From Polynucleobacter sp. MWH-UH2A (GTDB lineage: Bacteria > Pseudomonadota > Gammaproteobacteria > Burkholderiales > Burkholderiaceae), in NCBI RefSeq assembly GCF_018687195.1, contig NZ_CP061321.1, forward strand, positions 682,001 through 746,000: a stretch of DNA of 64,000 nt, in the 5' to 3' direction. Below, one piece after another: positions 16,035 through 63,702 of this stretch (position 1 is its first letter; the number at the start of each line of letters is the position of its first letter). The translations under genes were made by a program, and so were the position numbers. Under the pieces are notes generated by a model that was not told the origin of the DNA, did no database searches, and saw only the letters and a program-made list of their open reading frames with translations.

Positions 16035-18152
16035 TTAATTAAAGCTGTATTTTAATGTTGCGTAAATTGATCTAGGTTCGCTAGGGTAGTAAGAGTACTT
16101 ACTTGAGACATTACTCGGTGCAGTTCCGTAGGTAGAGTATTGTGCGTTACCCACATTCTTGATAGTAAAACGGGCTTCTAAAGCCTGAAATTTATAGGAT
16201 GTAAAAATATCTCCTACAACATATGAAGGCATTACAGGAGAGGCGCTGTAATAACTTGGGCCAGTATCGTAGTGTTGATTGCTTACGTAGTTTACAACTC
16301 CACCCAGAGTCCAATTGCTTGTAATCATATAGTTTGCTCTAGCGTTGAGAAGTGTGTCTGGAACTATAGGAATTGCATTTCCCGAATATGGGCCGTTGGC
16401 ATAATATGATTTTTGATACTTTCCACCAGCTCCAATATTCCATGAGGTTCCTAGGTTAGATGCTATATCGAATAAAACGCCAGTGCGGTTAGTTTGGTAT
16501 GGAGAATTGTAGTTATAACCAGTTGCTGGGTTATAACTAATTTCATTTTGCGTCATTGATTTAAAAAGCGACGAAGTTAGTCGAGAGCCCAACATCGTCC
16601 AGTTGCCACCAATTTCATAGGTTTGGGTAGTTTGTGGTTGTAGGATTCCGCTAAAAACCATAGTGGTTGTGTAATTGGGAGGTGGTCCATATGAAAATCC
16701 CCAGTACTCATCAATGTTTGGAAATCTAAACGATTGATTCCATTTGATGTACGCCCTTTGGCCAGGGAGGTAATTGGCATTTAATGCAACATCTCCAGCA
16801 TTGGCGGAATATTGTTGATTATTGGTTACAGTGCCATTCGCCGCAGAAATTGATGTGCTCGATGTTGAGGCTTGTTGTACTTGTCTTCGAAATCCACCGC
16901 TTGCTTCGAATATCTTATTGAAAGGTACTTTTTGGATTATGTAGACTGAATTATTGATTTGAGTTGCGCTTTGTGAGTCACTAATTAAGTTGTTGTAGTA
17001 AGTACCTCCGTTATCTGCTTGGTTTGCAAGAATAGTTGATTGAGATTGTGGGCTGTAACTATTGCTTCCGGCTTGATTTGCTTTTGAGAAATCGTAGCCA
17101 ACTATAGTGGTGCCTATATTGGAAATATTTGCTTTAATTCGGGGTGACACTGCAAGTTGCCAGCCTTGAAGTTTATTGTTCATTGCTGAGCCCGCGGTAT
17201 ATGCGTCAGCAAAGTAATCTGCTTGGGGTGTGTAAGCGAATGTAGTTTTTTTGTTGTATGAAGTATCAAGCTCTGCAACAAAATTCTCATCTATTGTTTT
17301 CGTAAGCCCCTGTCTAAATCCTGAATTATTTGTAGTCAAATTATTTCCAGCATTTTGTGGTCGGACTGATAGTGGGTTGCCAGACCCAACAAGTCCAACC
17401 ACTGGACTTGCTAGTTGTGAGTTTGTATAGGCGTAATAAACATCGAAAAATAATCGATCCCCATTTCCTAGGTTCTGCGAAATTTTTCCATCTATCGAAT
17501 ATGCGTTTGCGGCGGTGTTGGGTCTCCATCCATTTGTATTTGATGTATTTGCACTGAGCTGATAAGTCGTCTCACCAACGGCATTTTTAAAAACAGCATT
17601 ATTGATGGAGGTTCCCCAACTGCCATAAGTGGTGGATGCCTGATTAATGCTTTTTTTGCCGCCATTAGTGATGATATTTATAACGCCACCGACAGCGCCG
17701 TTACCGTACTGCACACTGGCGCCCCCTTGAAGTATTTCGATGCGTTCAATGGAGTCGATTGGAATGGATTCCCAATCGATGTTTCCTGAGTCAATAGGAT
17801 TTATGCGAATGCCATCCACCAAAACGGCGGTCGTACTGTTGCCTGTAGGGCCAAATCCACCCATATCAACCGAGGCATCTAAATTTAATGAGCTTGAATT
17901 TAATCCTGAAACGCGTAGACCACCAATTTGTGAGAGTACTTGAGGGATTGTGTTCGAGCTTGAATTTTCAATTTCCTCGCGGGTGATGATATTTACATTT
18001 GCCGGCACCTCATTTAAGTTTTCTGCAAAACGTGATCCAGTGACTATGACTGTTGACTGAGAGTTTTGTGCGAATGTATTGCTGGGGCTTATGAGTGAAT
18101 ATGCAATGCCACAAAGCAAGGCAATTTTCTTCTTACTGAACTGCTGTTTCAT
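16035..18152 (-). CDS. btuB: TonB-dependent receptor, BtuB-like (cobalamin uptake)
   Basis: Outer-membrane beta-barrel receptor. I start at the ATG giving MKQQFSKKKIALLCG, which begins a proper signal peptide of about 28 residues; a longer GTG start at 18185 would add 11 residues before it. The TonB-box/plug entry is QSTVIVTGSRF near residue 32, then the plug (VLVDGIRINP; ERIEILQGGASVQYGNGAVGGVINI), then about 22 strands rich in Asn, Ser and Tyr, ending in aromatic YSFN. The upstream cobalamin riboswitch makes vitamin B12 or another corrinoid the likely ligand. No BtuCDF genes are adjacent. Confidence 0.9.
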   Translation of the reverse strand: MKQQFSKKKIALLCGIAYSLISPSNTFAQNSQSTVIVTGSRFAENLNEVPANVNIITREEIENSSSNTIPQVLSQIGGLRVSGLNSSSLNLDASVDMGGFGPTGNSTTAVLVDGIRINPIDSGNIDWESIPIDSIERIEILQGGASVQYGNGAVGGVINIITNGGKKSINQASTTYGSWGTSINNAVFKNAVGETTYQLSANTSNTNGWRPNTAANAYSIDGKISQNLGNGDRLFFDVYYAYTNSQLASPVVGLVGSGNPLSVRPQNAGNNLTTNNSGFRQGLTKTIDENFVAELDTSYNKKTTFAYTPQADYFADAYTAGSAMNNKLQGWQLAVSPRIKANISNIGTTIVGYDFSKANQAGSNSYSPQSQSTILANQADNGGTYYNNLISDSQSATQINNSVYIIQKVPFNKIFEASGGFRRQVQQASTSSTSISAANGTVTNNQQYSANAGDVALNANYLPGQRAYIKWNQSFRFPNIDEYWGFSYGPPPNYTTTMVFSGILQPQTTQTYEIGGNWTMLGSRLTSSLFKSMTQNEISYNPATGYNYNSPYQTNRTGVLFDIASNLGTSWNIGAGGKYQKSYYANGPYSGNAIPIVPDTLLNARANYMITSNWTLGGVVNYVSNQHYDTGPSYYSASPVMPSYVVGDIFTSYKFQALEARFTIKNVGNAQYSTYGTAPSNVSSKYSYYPSEPRSIYATLKYSFN

Positions 18153-18299
18153 TTTTAACTTTCTGTTGTCGAATACCTGGCTCACTTCCCCGTAAGCTGG
18201 GTCGAACAGAATTTCTTGTGCAGGAGATTGGCGTCAATTGGGCGTCAGATCGCAAGATAGGGCGCTGTCATCGGCGCGCGAAGTTCCCCGTCCGCAAAA

Positions 18300-18495
18300 T
18301 TCCACCTGTCTTGGCCGGTATCCGGGCTAGTAAATCTCAGAACCTGGCCTTCCCATGCGATTGACGCGCACAGTGGCGTTTTCAGATTCCTGACCTCTTC
18401 AAGTGTTTATAAAAGAGGCATTTACTTACCGTTGCGGGGGCAGCACACGTTTAGTGTTTCCCGTTTAACCCTATTGCATTGCAATATGGCACCAC
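18300..18495 (-). promoter_or_regulatory. Cobalamin riboswitch
   Basis: On the minus strand the leader contains, in order, GGTGCC, GGGTTAAACGGGAA, GTGCTGCCCCCGCAACGGTAA, CGCCACTGTGCG, ATGGGAAGGCC and AGCCCGGATACCGGCC. These are the conserved cobalamin-aptamer core blocks and B12 box. It ends about 150 bases before the btuB-like start, leaving room for an expression platform. Binding adenosyl- or other cobalamin would shut down receptor synthesis. Ends are approximate. Confidence 0.95.
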
Positions 18496-18593
18496 GACCC
18501 CGCAATTCTAGCCTATCTTGCTGGGGTTTTAGGCTGAAATGCCCGCTTTTTGTGCCAAAAAAGCCTACAATATGGGTCTAGGATGAAGGATTC

Positions 18594-19211: not shown

Positions 19212-19260
19212 GCCTTTTGGAAGTCGACAACCCCCTTTAGGATCAAGGATTTGAGGGAAA

Positions 19261-19302
19261 TTGACCGAAGTCAATGATGATCTAGACCCTCAAGCCTAAT
19301 AT
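19261..19302 (+). promoter_or_regulatory. FNR-like operator and -10 element of oxc
   Basis: TTGAC-CGAA-GTCAA at 19261-19274 is a perfect 5-4-5 palindrome of the Crp/Fnr class. TAATAT at 19297-19302 is a good -10 hexamer. If transcription starts near 19309, the palindrome centre is at -41.5, the class II activator position. The same layout recurs before the OxlT-type gene. The resulting leader to the oxc ATG is about 117 bases and contains a small hairpin (CGGGT/ACCCG, 19317-19332). Confidence 0.65.
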
Positions 19303-19425
19303 TCACCTCAGCCTAAGCGGGTCCCAAAACCCGTTGTGCGATTAATAACTTTATTGGAGACGGTAGCGCAAGCTAAATTGCCTTGACGAATGTTGGGGCT
19401 ATACCTGCAATTCACATACACAACT

Positions 19426-21135
19426 ATGACAACAGATAATCAAAACACCCAGTTAACAGATGGCTTTCACCTCGTTATCGATGCCTTGAAAGCAAACGAC
19501 CTAAATACTATTTTCGGTCTTGTTGGTATTCCAATTACTGACCTTTGCCGTTTGGCTCAGGCAGAAGGTTTGCGCTTCATTGGTTTCCGTCACGAGCAAC
19601 ACGCAGGTAATGCTGCAGCGATTGCTGGTTACATGACACAAAAGCCTGGTATTTGCATGACTGTTTCTGCGCCAGGTTTCTTGAATGGTTTGACTGCACT
19701 AGCAAACGCTACTGTGAACTGCTTCCCAATGATTTTGATTTCTGGTTCAAGCGAACGCGAGATCGTTGACTTGCAGCAGGGTGACTACGAAGAGATGGAT
19801 CAGCTCAATGCTGCTAAGCCATACTGTAAAGCTGCTTATCGTATTAATCACATCGAAGATATCGGCATTGGTTTTGCTCGTGCGATTCGTGCAGCCGTTT
19901 CTGGTCGTCCAGGCGGTGTGTATTTGGACTTGCCAGCACAGTTGCTTTCTCAAACTATGCCTGTTGAAGAAGCTAAGAAGTCTATCTTCAAGGTAATCGA
20001 TCCAGTTCCACGTCAAATCCCAGCTGCTGATGCAGTTGCTCGTGCATTAGATGTGCTCAAAGGTGCTAAGCGCCCATTGATTCTCTTGGGCAAAGGTGCT
20101 GCTTATGCACAAGCTGATAAAGAAATTCGTGATTTGATCGAAAAATCTGGCATTCCTTATTTACCAATGTCTATGGCAAAAGGTTTGTTGCCAGATAACC
20201 ATCCACAGTCTGCTTCTGCAGCACGTTCATTCGTATTGGCCGAGGCTGATGCGGTGATGTTGGTTGGTGCTCGTTTGAACTGGTTGCTTGCGCACGGTAA
20301 AGGCAAGACATGGGGTAAAGATCCTAAGAAATTTATCCAAATCGATATTCAAGCAAACGAAGTCGATAGCAACGTGCAAATCGCTGCACCATTGATTGGT
20401 GATATCGGTTCATGCGTTGGTGAACTCTTGAAGGGTATTTCTGCTGTTCCAAAGCCAAGCGCTGAATGGATTGCTGCAATTACCGAGAAGAAAGAGAAGA
20501 ACACAGCGAAGATGGCTGAGACATTGGCTAAAGAAGCTAATCCAATGAACTTCCACGGCGCATTACGCGTAATTCGTGATGTGATCAAGAAGAACCCAGA
20601 TGTGAACTTGGTAAACGAAGGCGCTAATACTTTGGATTACTGCCGCGCTATCGTGGATATGTACAAGCCACGTAAGCGTTTTGACTCTGGTACTTGGGGC
20701 ATTATGGGTATCGGTATGGGCTACGCTATCGGCGCAGCCGTTACCAGCGGCTTGCCAACAGTGGCAGTTGAGGGTGACAGCGCTTTCGGTTTCAGCGGTA
20801 TGGAATTAGAAACTGTTTGCCGTTACAAGCTCCCAATCACAACCGTTGTGTTTAACAACAATGGTGTGTATCGCGGCACAGATCAAAACCCAACTGGTGG
20901 TGCGGATGTTGCGCCAACCGTGTTCGTTAAAGATGCGCGTTACGACAAGATGATTGAAGCATTTGGTGGTGTTGGCTACTATGTAACTACTCCAGCAGAA
21001 TTAGAAGCAGCATTAACAGAAGCAATTGCTGCCGGTAAACCAGCTCTTATCAATGCTGTTATTGATGAGACCGCAGGTACTGAAAGTGGACGTTTAACAA
21101 ACTTAAACCCATCTACAGCAGCTGCTAAGAAGTAA
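19426..21135 (+). CDS. oxc: Oxalyl-CoA decarboxylase
   Basis: Thiamine-diphosphate enzyme converting oxalyl-CoA to formyl-CoA and CO2. The 569 residues align through their length, as far as I recall, with Oxalobacter Oxc and E. coli YfdU. Key parts are [16 protein letters not shown] near residue 30, GFRHEQHAG with the catalytic Glu near 55, [13 protein letters not shown] near 162, and the ThDP/Mg block [14 protein letters not shown]...NNNG near 450-480. I use the ATG at 19426, which gives the usual family N-terminus; an ATG at 19390 is in frame. No clear ribosome site precedes either. Codon use is strongly biased to GGT/GCT/CGT, suggesting high expression. frc follows after 47 bases. Confidence 0.96.
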
Positions 21136-21182: not shown

Positions 21183-22433
21183 ATGACTAAACCATTAGAT
21201 GGTATTCGCATTATTGACTTCACACACGTACAAGCAGGTCCTGCATGTACTCAGTTGTTGGCTTGGTACGGTGCAGACGTGATCAAAGTAGAGCGTCCAG
21301 GTGCTGGCGACGTTACTCGTAGCCAATTGCGCGATATTCCAGGCGCTGATGCTTTGTATTTCACAATGCTCAACGGTAACAAGCGCTCATTGACATTGGA
21401 TACTAAGACTGCAGAAGGTAAAGAAGTTTTAGAGAAGATGATCAAGACTTCTGACGTAATGGTTGAGAACTTCGGTCCTGGTGCTTTGGATCGTATGGGT
21501 TTCTCTTGGAAGCGTATCCAAGAATTGAATCCAAAAATGATCATGGCTTCTGTAAAAGGCTTTAGCGATGGCCACTCATACGAAGATTTGAAAGTGTATG
21601 AGAACGTAGCTCAGTGTGCTGGTGGTGCTGCTTCTACAACTGGTTTCTGGGATGGTCCTCCTACTGTTTCTGCTGCTGCTTTGGGCGACTCTAATACTGG
21701 TATGCACTTGGCAATTGGTATTTTGACTGCATTGATGCAACGTGAAAAAACTGGCCGTGGCCAAAAAGTATCTTGCTCAATGCAGGACGCTGTATTGAAC
21801 TTGTGCCGCGTGAAGTTGCGCGATCAACAACGTTTGGACAAAGTTGGCTACTTGGAAGAGTATCCACAGTATCCACACGGCTCATTCTCTGATGTCGTTC
21901 CACGTGGCGGTAACGCTGGTGGTGGCGGTCAGCCAGGTTGGGTGTTGAAGTGTAAAGGTTGGGAAACTGATCCAAACGCATACATCTACTTCACTATTCA
22001 AGGTCACGCTTGGGAGCCAATTACTAAGGCTTTGGGCAAACCAGAGTGGGCAACAGATCCTAAATACATGACTGCTGAAGCTCGTCAAGATAAGATTTTT
22101 GACATCTTCGCAACTATTGAAGATTGGCTCAAAGATAAGACTAAATACGAAGCTGTGGACATTCTCCGCAAGTTCGATATTCCATGCGCTCCAGTTCTCT
22201 CTATGAAAGAATTGGCTGCATCACCAGACTTGCGTAAGAGTGGTTCGATTGTTGAAGTTGACCACAAAGTTCGTGGTAAGTACTTGACTATTGGTAGCCC
22301 AATCAAGTTCTCTGATTTGCAAATCGATGTGAAGCCATCTCCTGTATTGGGTGAGCACACTGATGAAGTGTTGTCTGACCTTGGTTACAGCGCTGATGAC
22401 ATCGCTAAATTGCACGCAGCAAAAGCAGTTTAA
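21183..22433 (+). CDS. frc: Formyl-CoA:oxalate CoA-transferase
   Basis: Class III CoA-transferase that moves CoA from formyl-CoA to oxalate, making oxalyl-CoA for Oxc. The 416 residues contain Gln17 (THVQAGP), Tyr59, catalytic Asp169 in [12 protein letters not shown], and the tetraglycine loop GGGGQ near 246-250; Gln17, Tyr59 and Asp169 have the numbering of the Oxalobacter enzyme. Residue 48 is Gln where Oxalobacter has Trp. A strong AAGGAGA ribosome site precedes the ATG. It shares the biased codon use of oxc and is followed by a good terminator, so oxc-frc is one transcript. Confidence 0.94.
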
Positions 22434-22553: not shown

Positions 22554-22982
22554 ATGAAAACCAGTATTGATTTACACCAGTTGGTAGAGTGTGTTGGTGA
22601 TGCGATTATCGTGTCAGACGCCAATGAAAAAATTGTCTTGTGGAATCCATCTGCCACTCGCATCTTTGGTTACACCGAAGAAGAGGCTTTAGGCCAGACT
22701 TTGGACTTGATTGTTCCTGAACGTCAGCGTCAACGACATAGCGAAGGCTATAGCAAATCAATGCAGACAGGCACAACTCGTTATGGCACTTCTTTGCTGA
22801 AGGTTCCTGCTAAGCATAAGGATGGCAACACACTCTCGATCGCATTTACTGTTGGAATGCTATTTGATGCGAATCACCAGGCGAATGGCGTCGTGGCAAT
22901 TATTCGGGATGAGACTGCTCGGTTTGCCGAGGAAAGAGCTCTGAAAAAGCGCATTGCGGACCTAGAGAATCCAACAACTTAG
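22554..22982 (+). CDS. Stand-alone PAS-domain sensor protein
   Basis: A 142-residue protein consisting of one PAS domain (about residues 8-125: VGDAIIVSDANEKIVLWNPSATRIFGYTEEEALG) and a short C-terminal helix, with no kinase, cyclase or DNA-binding output domain. The segment PERQRQRHSEGY places His62 where FixL-type PAS domains bind heme, by alignment from memory. It sits between frc and the second CoA-transferase and has its own start after the frc terminator. It may sense oxygen, redox state or a small ligand and act through a partner; the nearby Crp/Fnr protein is one candidate. Function unproven. Confidence 0.85.
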   Translation: MKTSIDLHQLVECVGDAIIVSDANEKIVLWNPSATRIFGYTEEEALGQTLDLIVPERQRQRHSEGYSKSMQTGTTRYGTSLLKVPAKHKDGNTLSIAFTVGMLFDANHQANGVVAIIRDETARFAEERALKKRIADLENPTT

Positions 22983-23110: not shown

Positions 23111-24358
23111 ATGGCAAAAGCACTAGAAGGGGTCAAAATCCTCGACTTTACGCACGTTCAATCAGGGCCAACTTGTACGCAGTTGTTGGCCTGGTTTGGC
23201 GCAGATGTAATTAAGGTAGAAAAATCAGGGGAAGGGGATGCGACACGCGGACAGCTGCGTGATATTCCTGATGCTGATAGCTTGTATTTCACGATGTTGA
23301 ACCACAACAAGCGCTCCATCACAGTAAATACGAAGACTCAAAAAGGTAAAGAAATTCTGGAGCGTCTCATTAAGGAGTGTGATGTTCTTGTTGAGAACTT
23401 TGCTCCAGGCGCACTCGATCGCATGGGTTTTTCTTGGGAACGTATTCAAGAGTTGAACCCCATGATGATCATGGCATCTGTAAAAGGTTTTGGTCCTGGT
23501 CCATACGAAGATTGCAAGGTGTATGAGAACGTCGCACAGTGTGCTGGTGGCTCTGCTTCTACAACCGGTTTTGATGATGGTCCTCCCATGGTTACGGGCG
23601 CGCAAATTGGCGATAGCGGCACTGGCTTGCATTTGGCCTTGGGCATCGTGACTGCCTTGTATCAGCGTACCCATTCAGGTCGTGGCCAAAAGGTATTGGC
23701 GGCGATGCAAGATGCGGTGTTGAACTTGTGCCGCGTAAAGTTGCGTGATCAGCAGCGCCTAGAACGCAATGGATTGATGCAAGAGTACCCACAGTTCCCT
23801 AACGGCGAGTTTGGTGACTCTGTACCCCGCGCTGGTAATGCCTCTGGCGGTGGTCAACCTGGTTGGATTGTGAAATGTAAGGGCTGGGAAAAAGATCCTA
23901 ATGCCTATATGTATGTGATTGTTCAAGCTCCGGTATGGGAAGCAGTTTGTAAAGTGATTGGTCGTGAAGATTGGATTACTGATGTTCGCTTCGCCTCACC
24001 GATGGCACGCTTGCCACACTTAATGGAAATCTTCGCTGAGATTGAGAAGTGGACCATGACCATGACGAAGTTTGAAGTTATGGATATCTTGAACAAGTAT
24101 GACATTCCGTGCGGCCCCATTTTGTCGATGAAAGAAATCGCAGAAGAGCCAGCATTACGCGCTACAGGAACAGTAGTGGAAGTGGATCATCCGATTCGTG
24201 GAAAGTATTTGACCGTTGGCAATCCAATTAAGATGTCAGATAGCCCAACAGAAGTGACACGCTCACCATTACTCGGTGAACATACTGATGAGATTCTGAG
24301 CGAGCTTGGATACTCTACAGATGATCTTATCGAACTTCGTCACAGTAAGGTGATCTAA
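23111..24358 (+). CDS. CaiB/BaiF CoA-transferase, second formyl-CoA transferase-like protein
   Basis: Paralogue of the Frc encoded 0.7 kb upstream, 415 residues, closely similar throughout. It keeps Gln17, Tyr59 and the catalytic Asp (residue 168, in [12 protein letters not shown]). The glycine loop is SGGGQ instead of GGGGQ, and it uses GGG and other less favoured codons more freely than frc, suggesting lower expression and independent evolution. Only one base separates its stop from the following formyltransferase-like gene, so the two are coupled. It may be a second formyl-CoA transferase with another acceptor acid, or a less active isoenzyme. Confidence 0.88.
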
Positions 24359-24359
24359 G

Positions 24360-25292
24360 ATGCGGGTTGCTTTGATTGGGAGTGCGGATTTCGGTAAAGC
24401 GGCTTTAGAGGCGTTTTTGGATCGCGGCGATGAAGTGGTTGCCGTCTTCTGCCCACCCGATAATCCCAAATCAAGCAAGCCAGAAGTTTTAAAAGAAGCT
24501 GCAATTGCAAGGGGGCTTCATCCCTTGCAATTTGCTTCGCTCAAAAGTCCTGAGGCGGCTCAGGCAATGATTGATAGCCAGGCGGATATTTGCGTCATGG
24601 CTTATGTGTTGCAGTTTGTTCCGCAAGAGCTTTGCAAAATTCCAAAGCACGGCACAATTCAGTACCACCCATCTTTATTGCCAAAGTATCGTGGCCCAAG
24701 CGCCATCAACTGGGCAATTGCATTGGGAGAGGAAAAAACGGGTCTGACTATTTTCCGCCCATCCGATGGCTTGGATGAAGGCGAAGTGATTTTGCAAAAA
24801 GAAGTGGCCATCGGACCGGATGACACTCTTGGAAAAATTTACTTTGATCATTTATTTCCGATTGGTGTCAAAGCCCTGTTGGAAGCCGCTGATCTCGTGG
24901 TGGCAGGTAAGCATCAAGAAATCGTGCAAGATGAGTCACAAGCAAATTACGAAGGTTGGTTTGATGCCAATGCCGCTCAGATTCATTGGGCATCGCACAT
25001 TAGCCAAATCTATAACTTGATTCGCGCATGCAACCCTGCGCCGGGTGCATGGACCAAGTTTGGTGAGCAAAAAGTACAAATCTACGATTGTCATAAGCAT
25101 ATTGCAGCAACTTTCGGTGCCGTTAAGGGCAAGCCAGGTGAGGTAACTCAAATCACTTTGGATTCATTCTTTGTGACCTGTCATGGTGGGCAGATCGAAG
25201 TACTCAAAGCAAAAGGTGCGGCTGGCAAGGTGAATGGCGCAGAGTTGGCTAAAGAGTTGAGTCTACAAGTAGGGCAGTTCTTCGCCCTGTAA
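24360..25292 (+). CDS. Formyltetrahydrofolate hydrolase/formyltransferase-fold protein (ALDH1L1 N-terminal-like)
   Basis: A 310-residue two-domain protein of the methionyl-tRNA formyltransferase fold. It resembles the N-terminal 10-formyl-THF hydrolase domain of ALDH1L1 more than Fmt: HGTIQYHPSLLPKYRGPSAINW carries the catalytic His near residue 103 in the PSLLP context, and SDGLDEGEVILQKE carries the catalytic Asp near 139. A C-terminal FMT_C-like domain (WASHISQIYNLIRACNPAPGAWT onward) follows from about 215. It is translationally tied to the second CoA-transferase. The likely role is exchange of formyl groups between folate and other carriers, or release of formate; the substrate is not certain. 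Confidence 0.8.
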   Translation: MRVALIGSADFGKAALEAFLDRGDEVVAVFCPPDNPKSSKPEVLKEAAIARGLHPLQFASLKSPEAAQAMIDSQADICVMAYVLQFVPQELCKIPKHGTIQYHPSLLPKYRGPSAINWAIALGEEKTGLTIFRPSDGLDEGEVILQKEVAIGPDDTLGKIYFDHLFPIGVKALLEAADLVVAGKHQEIVQDESQANYEGWFDANAAQIHWASHISQIYNLIRACNPAPGAWTKFGEQKVQIYDCHKHIAATFGAVKGKPGEVTQITLDSFFVTCHGGQIEVLKAKGAAGKVNGAELAKELSLQVGQFFAL

Positions 25293-62222: not shown

Positions 62223-62333
62223 TTGAAAATTTCCACCCGCATCCTTAGGTTAAATCGGCAAACTAACCCCTAATACCCCTTATTTTTAAAAGGATTTAAG
62301 GAGGGTAATCACTAGTGGGGTTTTGGGGGAATC

Positions 62334-62439: not shown

Positions 62440-63702
62440 ATGAGCGGTACGCAAACTACTGGGCCAATTGGAGGCCGTTGGTTTCAGCTACTAATCGGCA
62501 TTATTTGTATGTCGATGATTGCAAACTTGCAGTACGGTTGGACCTTGTTTGTAAACCCAATTGATGCCAAATTTGGCTGGGGTCGTGCAGCGATTCAAGT
62601 TGCGTTTACGATTTTCGTATTGACTGAAACTTGGTTGGTGCCTATCGAAGGTTACCTCGTTGATAAATTTGGCCCACGTCCAGTAGTGTTTGGCGGCGGC
62701 ATCTTGTGCGGTCTTGGCTGGATGATGAATGCTCATGCTGAGACATTAACAATGCTCTACACAGCAGCTGCTGTGAGCGGTGTTGGTGCTGGTGCTGTTT
62801 ATGGCACATGCGTTGGTAATGCATTGAAATGGTTCCCAGATCGTCGTGGTTTGGCTGCTGGCATGACTGCAGCAGGCTTTGGTGCTGGTTCTGCATTGAC
62901 TGTGATTCCAATTGCAAACATGATTGCAAACCAAGGCTACCAAGATGCGTTCTGGTATTTCGGTATTGGTCAGGGTGTGATCGTAGTAGTTCTTAGCTTG
63001 TTGCTCTCTAAGCCAATTAAGAGCGCTATTACTAGTGCAAAAGCAGCGGTTGTACAGACACGCAAAGACTTCCGTCCAATGGAAATGGTGAAGCAGCCAG
63101 TGTTCTGGATCATGTACATCATGTTTGTGATGGTTGCCGCTGGTGGCTTGATGGCTACTGCACAGTTGGGTCCAATTGCTAAAGACTTCCAAATCGCTGG
63201 CGTAACTGTGAGCTTGATGGGTCTGGCATTGCCTGCTTTGACATTCGCTTTGACAGTTGACCGTGTATTGAACGGCTTAACTCGTCCTTTCTTTGGTTGG
63301 GTATCTGACAAGATTGGTCGCGAGCAAACCATGACTCTGTGCTTCACATTTGAGTGCTTGGGTATTCTTGGCTTGTACTACCTCGGTCGTGATCCAGTCA
63401 TGTTTGTTCTGTTGACTGGTTTAGTGTTCTTTGCATGGGGCGAGATCTATAGCTTGTTCCCATCAACCAACGCAGACACATTCGGTTCAACCTACGCTGC
63501 TGGTAACGCAGGATTACTTTACACAGCAAAAGGAACTGCATCTTTGCTCGTTCCATTGTCTAGCGTACTGGTAACTGCTACTGGTGGTTGGGAAGCGGTT
63601 TTCTGGGTTGCTAGTTTCTTGAACGGAACTGCTGCAATCTTGGCTTGGTTTGTATTGCGCCCAATGCGTCGCAAGCTCATCGAGCGTTCAGCTAATATGT
63701 AA
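62440..63702 (+). CDS. oxlT: MFS transporter, oxalate/formate antiporter type
   Basis: Major-facilitator protein of 420 residues and twelve helices, matching the OxlT/OFA family: NLQYGWTLFVNPIDAKFGWGRAAIQVAFTIFVLTETWLVP near 28-67, GLGWMMNAHAETLTMLY, YGTCVGNALKWFPDRRGLAAGMTAAGFGAGSAL near 120-152 and GWVSDKIGREQTM near 285. It would exchange oxalate for formate, which both feeds Frc/Oxc and generates proton-motive force. A TAGGAGA ribosome site precedes the ATG. It shares the biased GGT/GCT/CGT codon use of oxc and frc and the FNR-like operator. Other organic-anion substrates are possible for the family. Confidence 0.85.
   Translation: MSGTQTTGPIGGRWFQLLIGIICMSMIANLQYGWTLFVNPIDAKFGWGRAAIQVAFTIFVLTETWLVPIEGYLVDKFGPRPVVFGGGILCGLGWMMNAHAETLTMLYTAAAVSGVGAGAVYGTCVGNALKWFPDRRGLAAGMTAAGFGAGSALTVIPIANMIANQGYQDAFWYFGIGQGVIVVVLSLLLSKPIKSAITSAKAAVVQTRKDFRPMEMVKQPVFWIMYIMFVMVAAGGLMATAQLGPIAKDFQIAGVTVSLMGLALPALTFALTVDRVLNGLTRPFFGWVSDKIGREQTMTLCFTFECLGILGLYYLGRDPVMFVLLTGLVFFAWGEIYSLFPSTNADTFGSTYAAGNAGLLYTAKGTASLLVPLSSVLVTATGGWEAVFWVASFLNGTAAILAWFVLRPMRRKLIERSANM

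Follow-up and report, generated by a model that had tools for sequence, protein, structure and literature searches.

Results

An oxalate gene cluster with an adjoining Crp/Fnr-type gene

In the 64-kb stretch of the Polynucleobacter sp. MWH-UH2A genome that we analyzed (the window), a gene encoding a protein of the Crp/Fnr superfamily lies directly upstream of a cluster for oxalate breakdown (Table 1). The cluster consists of oxc, which encodes oxalyl-CoA decarboxylase, two copies of the formyl-CoA transferase gene frc, a gene for a small PAS-domain protein between these copies and, as the last gene, one for a formyltransferase-like protein. The start codon of oxc was chosen by conservation. 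The PAS-domain protein adjoins frc in two further loci (L307 and L308), and the formyltransferase-like gene neighbors frc in other families. Elsewhere in the window is a gene for an OxlT-type transporter, which resembles oxalate/formate antiporters and whose substrate is putative.

Table 1. Coordinates of the oxalate genes, their regulator and the predicted control sites in the window
Feature	Position	Strand	Basis or remark
Regulator, Crp/Fnr superfamily, 205 aa	18594..19211	+	PF00027 above cut-off
Extended operator form ATTGAC-N4-GTCAAT	19260-19275	+	
oxc operator palindrome TTGACCGAAGTCAA, TTGAC-CGAA-GTCAA (predicted)	19261..19274	+	Center 19267.5
oxc promoter −10 element TAATAT	19297..19302	+	Conserved spacing to operator
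oxc, oxalyl-CoA decarboxylase	19426..21135	+	TIGR03254 and NF006721 over cut-off; start ATG 19426
frc, formyl-CoA transferase, first copy	21183..22433	+	TIGR03253 over cut-off
Small PAS-domain protein inside cluster	22554..22982	+	PF00989 and others
frc, formyl-CoA transferase, second copy	23111..24358	+	TIGR03253 over cut-off
Formyltransferase-like protein, last gene of cluster	24360..25292	+	PF00551 and PF02911; under NCBIfam cut-offs
Probable second operator TTGATTAACGTCAA	62334..62347	+	Before OxlT-type gene
OxlT-type transporter (oxalate/formate antiporter-like, putative substrate)	62440..63702	+	Probable regulon member

Two RNA features of this region were also noted. The predicted 5′ leader of oxc (19345-19415) carries a conserved GGAGAC-NN-UAGC-GNAA-GCUA-AAUUGC...GCAAUU, located between a GGAGA that resembles a ribosome site and the start codon. 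Its small hairpin could pair fully in 66 of 77 leaders, and an exact second helix of at least 5 bp occurs in 40 of the 77, versus 16% in shuffles; altered forms of this helix that still pair are also found (AACTGT, AATTACA). The whole conserved stretch is absent from some genomes, and comparison of the leader with Rfam gave no match. On the minus strand, a cobalamin riboswitch (RF00174, 77 bits, 18296-18511) precedes a TonB-receptor-like gene (16035-18185).

A conserved palindrome at class II spacing precedes oxc

Between the regulator gene and oxc lies a perfect palindrome with the arms TTGAC and GTCAA. As stated in the initial annotation, its center is 29.5 bp from the first base of a TAATAT hexamer; the transcription start would then fall near 19309. 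We considered TTGACC as a −35 box and rejected it, since the gap to the −10 element is 30 bp. The exact palindrome occurs once in the window, whereas the half-site pair TTGAY-N4-RTCAA has two matches, this one and another upstream of the OxlT-type gene, in agreement with what had been seen by eye. By count alone this pair is weakly unusual, as at least two matches were obtained in 6 of 100 shuffles of the window.

A genome-wide scan, which had been suggested with the initial annotation, gave different answers for the two forms of the motif. The degenerate TTGAY-N4-RTCAA occurs 32 times in 2.02 Mb and 19 of the other matches fall within open frames that are 188 amino acids or longer, so this pattern alone defines no regulon. 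The extended form ATTGAC-N4-GTCAAT is found about once per genome. Of the 24 genomes scanned, 19 carry the regulator, and in 17 of these it is the oxc site that matches; four matches lie elsewhere over the full set. Other positions of TTGAC-N4-GTCAA in relatives (L379-L383) are within genes or precede unrelated genes. A reversed-pattern control (32 matches versus 10) hinted at a large FNR regulon, an idea that we rejected because genomes that lack FNR show an equal excess (25 versus 6 in G016); the excess over the reversed pattern thus reflects composition. It is conservation, not count, that raises the oxc site above chance.

The regulator is present in 119 of 151 sampled Polynucleobacter genomes, and the regulator-oxc intergenic region was examined in 101 of these. 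Both arms are exact in 99 of the 101 loci and TTGAY-N4-RTCAA is found in 100; one arm is altered in L134. Across these loci the spacer takes eight forms with constant arms, and the 5+4+5 placement at 19261 is the most conserved in the alignment (0.998, against a mean of 0.64 for the other columns). A hexamer resembling TAATAT or TAAGAT lies 29.5 or 30.5 bp from the operator center in 98 of 100 loci. It had been foreseen that a motif not conserved before oxc in related genomes would speak against the proposal; the motif is kept in 100 of the 101 Polynucleobacter loci and, shortly before oxc/frc, in 36 of the 40 loci that we inspected elsewhere (see below).

Thirteen Polynucleobacter genomes that lack the regulator were also tested. 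Ten are without oxc, their best matches being other TPP enzymes with 24-29% identity, and the remaining three carry a divergent oxc (74-77% identity; L159, L160 and L161), upstream of which the palindrome was not found. In G105, G017 and G023 (L156, L157 and L158) both the regulator and oxc have decayed, and in G105 and G023 the operator is still readable despite the broken genes. The regulator, the site and the oxalate genes are inherited together.

The regulator ends shortly after its recognition helix

The sensor domain of the regulator scores 31.6 bits with PF00027 (cut-off 27.5), and the protein is under the NCBIfam equivalog cut-offs for both CRP (29.2 of 266 bits) and Fnr (22.5 of 228). 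Although a Pfam search with the single protein gave no helix-turn-helix hit and left the DNA-binding part unrecognized, a profile of orthologs (alignment A2) matches both CRP and DNR in an alignment that runs through the recognition helix (CRP residues 180-186). By profile, both the sensor and the DNA-binding fold resemble CRP and DNR structures (E 1.9e-9 to 1.5e-7), with SPETLSRL of the regulator aligned with SRETVGRI of CRP. The E-x-x-S-R helix ascribed to this protein in the initial annotation is present in its C terminus, NLSPETLSRLK, and E-T-L-S-R is invariant in 26 aligned orthologs, down to 52% identity.

The protein stops about 10 residues past this helix, and since every ortholog ends some 5-20 residues beyond ETLSR, these proteins differ from both CRP and FNR in having no C-terminal wing. 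At the specificity position the regulator has S where CRP has G and, as judged by eye, it has no CRP-type cAMP-pocket motif. An FNR-type N-terminal cysteine cluster was not found in it; C21, the sole cysteine in the N-terminal region, is not conserved. The closest solved structure is 3dn7, a cyclic nucleotide binding regulatory protein (E 4.7e-14), to which the similarity is remote and extends over about the full length. It is equal in length to the regulator and also stops early past the recognition helix; its entry gives no function or target. An AlphaFold model of the regulator was set aside (mean pLDDT 53.6), and a plasmid search found no relatives of the protein.

The regulator and the palindrome occur in other families of the order

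A family-level search (E 1e-25) returned the regulator from Polynucleobacter only, one of 25 genera. The view that it is specific to this genus was overturned by a search of the order with a regulator profile, which identified orthologs in 29 of 158 genera (counting Polynucleobacter) and in 13 further families. In a contig scan, the best 80 matches all came from Polynucleobacter or from beta-proteobacterial bins.

We examined 40 loci around orthologs in the 13 other families. Most of them have the regulator gene either adjacent to oxc/frc and a formyltransferase-like gene or divergently oriented to these. In 33 of these loci, 36 palindromes lie within the 10,055 bp of intergenic DNA shared by the regulator and oxc/frc, where 0.68 would be expected from the palindrome frequency in the other 400 kb of these loci. 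Equal frequency before unrelated genes would have told against the initial annotation; the degenerate motif is common over the genome, but in the regulator-oxc/frc DNA it is about 50-fold enriched relative to the rest of these loci. The site precedes oxc or frc in a different gene arrangement in three loci (L336, L340 and L341) and lies 0.5-0.8 kb before frc in two (L318 and L320); none was found in L330 or in the truncated locus L338. On the oxc/frc side, all 36 sites from outside Polynucleobacter have TANNNT at class II spacing, at 29.5 bp in 14 and at 30.5 bp in 22. Together with the spacing within Polynucleobacter, this bears out the class II Crp/Fnr geometry first read from the window.

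Some loci carry extra palindromes. These precede OxlT-type genes (two in L345), substrate-binding proteins resembling those of tripartite tricarboxylate transporters (L308, L314 and L323) and a PanE/ApbA-like protein (L321). In other families the regulon may thus be wider, with transporters as probable targets. In Cupriavidus necator, a protein of the PanE/ApbA kind near frc-oxc is a CoA-acylating glyoxylate dehydrogenase (PMC7486775).

Two further observations concern genes near such sites. In L307, L309, L310 and L316, the regulator adjoins a gene for a TPP enzyme that is only 25-28% identical to oxc, and both the palindrome and the −10 spacing are still present; this enzyme may either be an oxalyl-CoA decarboxylase as well or catalyze a different reaction. 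In the MWH-UH2A genome, a perfect TTGACTATAGTCAA at position 1414511 (L378:5512-5525) precedes a small twin-arginine-type gene, which is followed by a gene resembling that of the formate dehydrogenase large subunit. Formate is a product of oxalate breakdown.

A looser copy of the site precedes the OxlT-type gene

TTGAY-N4-RTCAA is found upstream of 29 of 29 OxlT-type genes (57-100% identical) from genomes with an intact or decayed regulator, starting 77-119 bp before the gene, and was not found upstream of the OxlT-type gene of the one genome that lacks the regulator (L090). The form of this site differs from that before oxc, being mostly CTTGATTN-GTGTCAAG, a looser match. It has neither TANNNT at the class II position nor a clean TATAAT, and its best-scoring hexamer lies at 29.5 bp. 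We regard oxlT as a probable second target of the oxalate regulator. Most relatives also conserve a separate element, GGGTAATCACTAGTG (62303-62317), which lies some 17-20 bp before the probable oxlT operator and includes the palindrome CACTAGTG; a different regulator may bind there.

Discussion

From the sequence comparisons, we consider it very probable that the protein encoded directly upstream of oxc is a dedicated class II activator of oxc-frc from the Crp/Fnr superfamily, with the palindrome as its predicted operator. We infer binding, activation rather than repression, the dimeric state and the effector. The regulator would bind as a dimer in which the E-T-L-S-R helix of each subunit reads one TTGAC half-site. 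Positioned at about −41.5 of a predicted oxc promoter that has a fair −10 but lacks a good −35, it would recruit RNA polymerase as a class II activator, turning on oxc-frc-PAS-frc-formyltransferase and probably, via the looser copy of the site, oxlT. The trigger would be an encounter of the sensor domain with its signal; as a guess, this is most likely oxalate or a CoA thioester derived from it.

Could the protein instead act at this site as a repressor, or control its own expression? In the majority of the other families, the site is flanked by divergent regulator and oxc/frc genes and is often less than 100 bp from the regulator, an arrangement that favors such a role. However, the fixed −41.5-like spacing to a −10 element exists on the oxc/frc side only, as the regulator side of the 36 sites outside the genus has no −10 spacing peak. 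In addition, the site in the window is downstream of the regulator gene, and three loci (L317, L324 and L329) contain two sites, one per oxalate gene. We therefore regard repression or autoregulation as unlikely.

Another possibility is that the site is an ordinary FNR/ANR box, through which the global oxygen-sensing FNR or a second FNR-like protein controls oxc, and that the neighboring regulator acts elsewhere. TTGAY-N4-RTCAA is a known FNR-type box, and a similar one, TTGATCTATGTCAA, precedes a ccoN-like gene (L371). Moreover, besides the oxalate regulator the MWH-UH2A genome encodes four further short Crp/Fnr-type proteins, two of which have an E-x-x-S-R helix: L002, a cysteine-bearing FNR, and L001. 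Yet L002-type FNR is absent from 25 of the 151 Polynucleobacter genomes and the L001 type from 105, and the oxc site is kept despite such absences (e.g., in G010, G016, G018, G047, G062, G068, G108 and G110). In three of these, the complete genomes G016, G018 and G110, the oxalate regulator is the only PF00027 protein detected, and the palindrome is retained before both oxc (L136, L101 and L135) and the OxlT-type gene (L091, L070 and L084). As the site is kept in such genomes, the global FNR is not what conserves it; conversely, the site is missing where oxc occurs without the regulator. Control of oxc by FNR in place of its neighbor is thus highly unlikely, although FNR, which most genomes carry, may also read the oxc site where it is present. 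The dedicated regulator of the initial annotation is supported by co-occurrence, joint decay and the genomes with no other detected Crp/Fnr-type protein; what needs revision is the group concerned, which is far wider than the genus.

Finally, the palindrome could have arisen by chance, or it could form an RNA hairpin or terminator where the regulator gene ends; both readings can be all but dismissed. The degenerate motif does recur some 32 times in a genome, and a stem of 5 bp closing a 4-nt loop forms easily, but the arms are invariant while the loop varies, there are no compensatory arm changes and no T run after the palindrome, and elsewhere the site lies between divergent genes with the −10 spacing kept.

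In FNR/ANR/FixK-type class II promoters, an FNR box, TTGAT-N4-ATCAA, is centered near −41.5. The predicted activator of oxc shares with these systems the TTGAY half-site, the N4 spacer, the E-x-x-S-R helix and a center about 29.5 bp before the −10 element. It differs in that its operator has C/G at the fifth base, in that the protein is linked to oxalate genes, is without the FNR cysteine cluster and ends just past the recognition helix, and in that one regulator would serve one small pathway rather than a respiratory regulon. Control of an oxc-frc operon has been described for E. coli, where EvgA acts on yfdXWUVE through inverted repeats (PMC3720670). Unlike the oxalate regulator, EvgA is the response regulator of a two-component system that serves acid resistance, and it belongs to another protein family and uses another site. 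In the open-access literature, to which the search was confined, control of oxc-frc was found only for this acid response and no Crp/Fnr-type oxalate regulator was found, in keeping with the initial impression that none had been described. The regulon would thus be new, and the kind of regulation is known.

A bolder reading, which we offer tentatively as less likely than not, is that an order-wide family of wingless Crp/Fnr proteins directly senses oxalate, oxalyl-CoA or formyl-CoA, with a regulon made up of oxc, frc, a PanE2-like glyoxylate/oxalyl-CoA enzyme, OxlT or tripartite tricarboxylate transporters and, in some cases, formate dehydrogenase. If true, it would add a new ligand class to the superfamily and provide a ready oxalate sensor. 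How a Crp/Fnr protein that ends straight after its recognition helix grips DNA is a structural puzzle.

Since a planktonic Polynucleobacter strain was reported not to assimilate oxalate (PMC3308952), the role of the oxalate operon may lie in gaining energy and not in supplying carbon. Oxalate breakdown is relevant to carbon turnover in soil and freshwater and to kidney stones. The operator can serve as a DNA signature for predicting more oxalate genes, and the promoter is a candidate oxalate-responsive promoter. A regulator and an operator kept over 14 families amount to a testable rule for when these bacteria use oxalate.
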